Assembly: GCA_013336525.1 (NCBI GenBank)
Contig: JAAXTM010000006.1
Coordinates: forward strand, 62,001-126,000
Origin: Geobacteraceae bacterium
Lineage (GTDB): Bacteria; Desulfobacterota; Desulfuromonadia; Geobacterales; Pseudopelobacteraceae
Length of the DNA stretch: 64,000 bases
Direction of reading: 5' to 3'
Made by a program: the position numbers and the translations under genes. Shown piece by piece: positions 45,772 through 45,887 of the stretch. Positions within the stretch are counted from its first letter, which is position 1; every line of letters begins with the position of its first letter. Below the pieces are notes generated by a model. It did no database searches and was not told where the DNA came from. It saw only the letters and a list, made by a program, of their open reading frames with translations.

Positions 45772-45824
45772 AAAAAAAAGCCGAGTCGCCGCTATCAGAA
45801 ATCTTGATAGTTCGGCGACCCGGC
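45772..45824 (-). terminator. riboswitch expression-platform terminator
   Basis: Reverse strand GCCGGGTCGCCG...CGGCGACTCGGCTTTTTTTT; 5' arm overlaps aptamer 3' strand. Confidence 0.85.
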
Positions 45825-45887
45825 TGTCTCATGAAGACCCTAGGCTTTCCGTCCCACCCTCGCGGATGGTTTAGTATTATCGCTACC
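45813..45887 (-). ncRNA. GEMM-I cyclic dinucleotide riboswitch aptamer (A20-type)
   Basis: Reverse strand GGTAGCGATAATACTAAACCATCC-GCGA-GGGTGGGACGGAAAGCCTAGGGTCTtcatgAGACAGCCGGGTCGCCG. Confidence 0.88.

Follow-up and report, generated by a model that had tools for sequence, protein, structure and literature searches.

The window, that is, the whole stretch of DNA analysed here (64,000 nucleotides of contig JAAXTM010000006.1 from a Geobacteraceae bacterium), carries on its minus strand a GEMM-I riboswitch aptamer, an intrinsic terminator that overlaps it, and the gene for a 653-aa protein. A promoter-like site sits between the terminator and the start codon of this gene. The coordinates of these features, and of related aptamers in the window and in other genomes, are collected in Table 1. 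A PIN-domain toxin and FitA-like antitoxin pair (46007-46744, minus strand) lies upstream of the riboswitch; further upstream, our own reading of the translations places EpsI-like and exosortase-like genes at 49164-50646 of the same strand.

Table 1. Features of the riboswitch locus and of related GEMM-I leaders
Feature	Position	Strand	Basis and remarks
GEMM-I aptamer (RF01051), A20 type (GEMM-Ib)	45811-45885	minus	cmscan, 50.4 bits; covariation, 17 relatives
P1 5' strand, GGUAG	45887-45883	minus	Partner CUAUC 45810-45806 in aptamer fold; from sequence
P2	45869-45864 with 45859-45854	minus	GCGA cap (GNRA) at 45863-45860
P3	45845-45818	minus	Part of the GEMM-I aptamer
Intrinsic terminator	45772-45824	minus	MFE fold; duplex -31.7 kcal/mol; cognate-arm permutation test
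Promoter-like site	45732-45760	minus	TTGACG (45760-45755), 17 nt, TAAAAT (45737-45732), TG extended -10; scan, 10 of 12
Shine-Dalgarno GAGGAG	45695-45700	minus	7 nt before ATG 45687; sequence
Target gene, 653 aa	43726-45687	minus	Three MshEN, signal-peptide-like segment, Fn3, two Big_7, dockerin-like C-terminus
Second A20 GEMM-Ib riboswitch, overlapping terminator	48888-48964	minus	About 57 nt before secreted Fn3-dockerin-like gene 48264-48830
Third GEMM-I aptamer, G20 (c-di-GMP type), terminator overlapping P1	55796-55877	minus	Before large exported protein
L147 tandem leaders, A20/G20 aptamers	628-704/838-929 and 3310-3386/3576-3666		Reverse-complement coordinates
L148 tandem leaders, A20/G20 aptamers	986-1062/1195-1281 and 4662-4738/4866-4951		

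A cmscan of the whole window recovered the RF01051 aptamer well above the family gathering score of 35 (E 6.9e-7). The first-pass annotation had assigned the element to GEMM-I and proposed an Infernal search with the Rfam model as a check; the covariance-model match at 45885-45811 bears this assignment out. Three known families were compared: RF01051 (c-di-GMP-I), RF03167 (c-di-GMP-I-GGC), and RF03168 (c-di-GMP-I-UAU). When the riboswitch stretch alone was searched, RF03167 was the top family of the clan, with a score of 51.6 bits that is similar to that of RF01051 and falls under its own gathering score of 59, whereas RF01051 exceeds its threshold. Read directly on the minus strand, the aptamer runs through P2, GGGACGGAAAGCC, P3, and AGCCGGGU; both cmscan and the alignment place the GNRA-capped P2, P3, and the conserved pocket segments within it. 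The GCGA-looped hairpin is the one earlier called P1b, and the other segments named at that time are all present. The base at Rfam column 11 (window position 45875) is A in the RF01051 alignment; our own column mapping equates this column with position 20 of Vc2, which is G in Vc2-type, c-di-GMP aptamers, in agreement with the A20 proposed earlier.

Comparison of 17 A20 RNAs from the same and related genomes indicates that A20 is invariant and that its pocket surroundings (CGAUAAUACUAAAC, GGACGGAAAGCC, and GCCGAA) are nearly so. Both sides change at 5 of the 6 pairs of P2, and P2 and P3 together are paired at 98.9%, with slid controls never exceeding 49%. Cognate pairing of P1 is weak (165 of 20000 permutations for the 17 sequences, 819 of 20000 after dereplication, and 2001 for the window's own genome alone), and the aligned rows are related, such that permutation counts on them are not strict probabilities; the GGUAG/CUAUC helix does form when the terminator 3' arm is removed before folding. 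At -51.2 kcal/mol, the fold of the 126-nt RNA is more stable than those of shuffled sequences (-34.4 ± 3.4 kcal/mol, z = -5.0). Because of this folding energy, the covariance-model score, the covariation in P2, and the pairing of P2 and P3 relative to slid controls, the aptamer element is far beyond chance.

The terminator 5' arm, GCCGGGUCGCCG (45824-45813), pairs with CGGCGACUCGGC (45791-45780) through 12 pairs, one of them G-U, around an inner CUAUCA/UGAUAG helix, and is followed by a T8 run at 45779-45772. This 5' arm is also the 3' strand of aptamer P3/P1, as the first-pass annotation had described. The aptamer and terminator folds are mutually exclusive, and the ON-switch reading given there is therefore supported. 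Without ligand, the nascent aptamer 3' strand (AGCCGGGUCGCCGAACUAUC) would be taken by the downstream arm, forming a terminator of 12+6 bp followed by T8; binding of cGAMP would instead keep this strand in P3/P1, and we infer that RNA polymerase would then read through into the 653-aa gene. Column-wise counts of terminator pairs on the MAFFT alignment are uninformative owing to gaps and differing loop lengths, and cognate pairing was therefore measured by a per-sequence duplex test. Across the 17 A20 riboswitches, cognate terminator arms pair more stably than non-cognate arms (mean -25.4 vs. -23.1 kcal/mol; 0 of 20000 permutations as strong); for the own genome alone, the count is 5 of 20000.

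A search of the own genome returned 10 GEMM-I RNAs above the cut-off, nine of A20 and one of G20 type. In each of the nine A20 RNAs, the AGCCGGG(U/C) strand can pair with an arm further downstream in the same RNA, and a T run is present, while the terminator of the G20 aptamer shares only the A-rich P1 strand. Two of the A20 RNAs stand in tandem before one lipoprotein gene. The A20 targets include pilM and several exported proteins or lipoproteins, kinds of genes that are also reported to be under cGAMP control in G. sulfurreducens (PMC6456294). In the leaders of L003 and L009, other A20 riboswitches stand before uncharacterised exported proteins. The G20 aptamer of the window lies no more than about 10 kb from two A20 aptamers, in the exosortase/polysaccharide region.

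The locus resembles the Geobacter GEMM-Ib riboswitches of pgcA/GSU1761, Gmet_0970, and G. metallireducens pilM in its A20, its GNRA-capped P2, and its mutually exclusive ON-switch architecture; in the pilM case, mutually exclusive aptamer and terminator folds are turned ON by cGAMP (PMC9262584). It differs from them in its target, an MshEN-Fn3-Ig exported protein, and in the promoter-like site 3' of the terminator. The RNA is thus an ordinary, well-formed switch and a new GEMM-Ib case; for Geobacter, how such switches turn ON and what A20 signifies had been established before. A20 is the accepted GEMM-Ib discriminator: an A20G substitution turns Gmet_0970 from cGAMP to c-di-GMP recognition (PMC6456294), and an A20-type pocket change was also employed in a tandem system and examined there by in-line probing (PMC9481103). 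A candidate cGAMP synthase is present in the riboswitch's own genome: L034 is a GacA-like REC-GGDEF protein in which the Hypr Ser replaces Asp (GHLVGS...GGDEY), and its top PDB match is 6d9m, a Geobacter GacA-type GGDEF structure (E 1.2e-57). Hypr GGDEF proteins of the GacA kind are the known makers of cGAMP, and this enzyme is probably its source here. A second GGDEF protein of the genome (L037, C15:410047-410517) has Thr at the Hypr position (GHFAGT).

Taken together, the locus is very probably a GEMM-Ib, 3',3'-cGAMP-preferring transcriptional ON riboswitch, probably one of two inputs to its gene, whose MshEN-containing product is predicted to be exported. That the element might instead be an ordinary terminator or a chance hairpin with aptamer-like sequence and no ligand function is scarcely credible in view of the bit score, the invariant pocket, the covariation of P2, and the matched terminator arms at many loci. 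A different alternative accepts the riboswitch but has its aptamer answer mainly c-di-GMP, or both dinucleotides equally, despite A20. For the omcST riboswitch of G. sulfurreducens, responses to cGAMP as well as c-di-GMP have been reported (PMC6456294), making A20 an imperfect predictor, and the c-di-GMP-type G20 member in the same window suggests that both signals are probably used in the cell. However, the Geobacter GEMM-Ib riboswitches tested in two studies (PMC6456294, PMC8835794) are about 1200-1600-fold selective for cGAMP, a preference that A20G reverses, and the near-invariance of the pocket among the 17 A20 members likewise argues against this alternative, which we consider unlikely. 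We infer a cGAMP-preferring aptamer at this locus.

The less ordinary aspect is the gene behind the switch, which encodes a predicted exported surface protein that opens with three domains akin to c-di-GMP receptors. In a phmmer search of PDB, residues 1-200 match the MshEN proteins PilF (6f8l, E 2.8e-13) and c-di-GMP-bound MshE (5htl, E 3e-7), and an AlphaFold model built with 30 aligned relatives has a mean pLDDT of 82. The predicted N-terminus superposes on 5htl_B with an rmsd of 0.5 Å over 50 columns (Foldseek probability 1.00, E 1.3). Foldseek E-values are poor (about 1) because the matched MshEN unit is short; the structural side of the assignment rests on the Foldseek probability and rmsd, together with the sequence match. 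Both the 53-residue double motif and the four-helix fold of MshEN are found, in modules spanning residues 8-60, 79-131, and 144-196, supporting the earlier MshEN identification with a count of three. A signal-peptide-like segment follows at about residues 198-222, and behind it Pfam recognises Fn3 and two Big_7 domains. In the MshEN part, Pfam returned only DUF4388 and a FumaraseC_C match under the cut-off, with no match to T2SSE_N.

As in the MshEN receptors V. cholerae MshE (5htl) and Thermus PilF-GSPIIB, each module consists of two 24-residue half-motifs joined by a 5-residue spacer, an arrangement that occurs here three times. Unlike in those proteins, the modules stand before a signal peptide rather than on an ATPase, are recognised as DUF4388 rather than T2SSE_N, and include three half-motifs without the first Arg or Lys. 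Half I of module 3 is intact (R144, G146, L149, L164, and Q167 vary little or not at all among 30 relatives), and half II carries K173, V189, and F193. In modules 1 and 2, half I does not begin with Arg, and the remaining halves are partly changed; over the six half-motifs, the first residue is not basic Arg/Lys in three (His in one of these) and is Lys for Arg in two more. MshE binds c-di-GMP at 0.5 µM and cGAMP at 330 µM, a roughly 660-fold preference (PMC5013675). Because of this preference, the MshEN part, if it binds a ligand, should by analogy read c-di-GMP, in which case RNA and protein would probably read different dinucleotides: cGAMP would set the level of the RNA, and c-di-GMP, if bound, would act on the protein. 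A single gene would then keep two closely related messengers apart, with one acting on its RNA and the other on its protein.

The dockerin label of the first-pass annotation is weak. Dockerin type I (PF00404) has no Pfam match in the 653-aa protein despite its dockerin-like C-terminus, and in the paralogue at 48264-48830 it scores 17.1 against a cut-off of 22.9; the dockerin and cohesin labels were both rejected for scores under the cut-off. A Gly-rich lipoprotein gene whose product matches cohesin weakly (PF00963, E 0.034) lies directly behind the dockerin-like gene at 43177-43629(-). Its membership of the same operon was also rejected, since by our own reading a hairpin with a T-rich tail separates the two genes.

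The candidate riboswitch-independent promoter, TTGACG-N17-TAAAAT, could leave the switch with little importance for this gene. With this site placed after the terminator and ahead of the start codon, the riboswitch may be one of two inputs to the 653-aa gene. The site occurs at the same place in L109, with both hexamers identical to those of the window while the bases just downstream differ, and a similar one is found in L110; a related site precedes L112, which is riboswitch-free. Across 26 family genes, the region from -42 to -75 relative to the start codons has a mean extended -10 score of 5.23, compared with 4.33 ± 0.24 for shuffles, and 0 of 200 shuffles reach the family's value. These observations would fit a scenario in which the riboswitch is real but the proximal promoter drives the MshEN gene, with the terminator insulating it or making a short RNA. 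However, sites of this kind readily arise by chance (6 in the region vs. 3.5 expected), and a scan found none in L114, which comes from a different family of the order and has its riboswitch about 95 nt before the matched start. We regard exclusive use of the proximal promoter as somewhat unlikely. The earlier claim that the riboswitch controls the MshEN-protein gene thus stands insofar as a riboswitch with its terminator lies upstream, and is qualified by a conserved promoter-like site 3' of that terminator that is also seen before riboswitch-free relatives, and by the lack of an adjacent riboswitch at most genes of the MshEN family. On the ON-riboswitch reading with a possible second input, the putative activity of this promoter and the predicted binding of c-di-GMP by the MshEN extension become the main points of interest.

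Among the loci examined, only four MshEN-family genes are immediately preceded by a riboswitch in sense orientation: that of the window and the orthologues at L042/L109, L043/L110, and L107/L114 (the last from another family of the same order), each of them preceded by an A20 riboswitch with an overlapping terminator. The custom covariance model used in these searches (R1) holds 6 pairs only and served as a finder only. By comparison, an upstream GEMM-I RNA is much more frequent among Fn3/Big_7 genes that lack MshEN, being present at 10 of the 10 loci examined (L059-L067, L070); for this reason the riboswitch-MshEN pairing looks like a domain fusion within a riboswitch-rich class of exported proteins. 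With this riboswitch, the cGAMP regulon of Geobacter relatives would extend to an exported Fn3/Ig family adjoining an exosortase/polysaccharide island.

The triple-MshEN and signal-peptide module is also fused to unrelated exported parts, including CAP (L122), a right-handed beta-helix (L136), a paired CxxCH cytochrome (L127, L128), and others. Carriers of the module (43726-45687(-), L101, L102, and L109-L144, among them also lipoproteins and Fn3/Ig proteins) belong mostly to Geobacterales, with some labelled Nitrospirota. A lipobox-like LTGC/MEGC, by our own reading, ends the hydrophobic stretch in L136 and L139, pointing to a cytoplasmic MshEN extension that precedes a cleavable signal peptide. 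The product of the window's gene would hold its three predicted MshEN domains on the cytoplasmic side of the signal peptide or anchor, with the Fn3/Ig-like part exported. A joint reading in which cGAMP opens the mRNA and c-di-GMP binds the cytoplasmic triple-MshEN part, gating export or release of the surface part, is speculative and on balance doubtful; were it true, the MshEN extension reused before cytochromes, CAP, beta-helix, and Fn3/Ig parts would constitute a previously unrecognised c-di-GMP-controlled export module.

In four leaders of two related genomes (two each in L147 and L148), an A20 aptamer and, behind it, a G20 aptamer precede a single gene for an exported protein, an arrangement that might work as a cGAMP AND c-di-GMP gate. 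With two GEMM-I aptamers ahead of one gene, these leaders resemble published tandem riboswitch logic gates (PMC9481103); the portion of its logic-gate table considered here lists no A20-then-G20 (cGAMP then c-di-GMP) pair. Together with the shuffled triple-MshEN module, these tandems would open the interplay of the two dinucleotides to direct tests. A scan found a T-run terminator after 7 of the 8 aptamers in these leaders.
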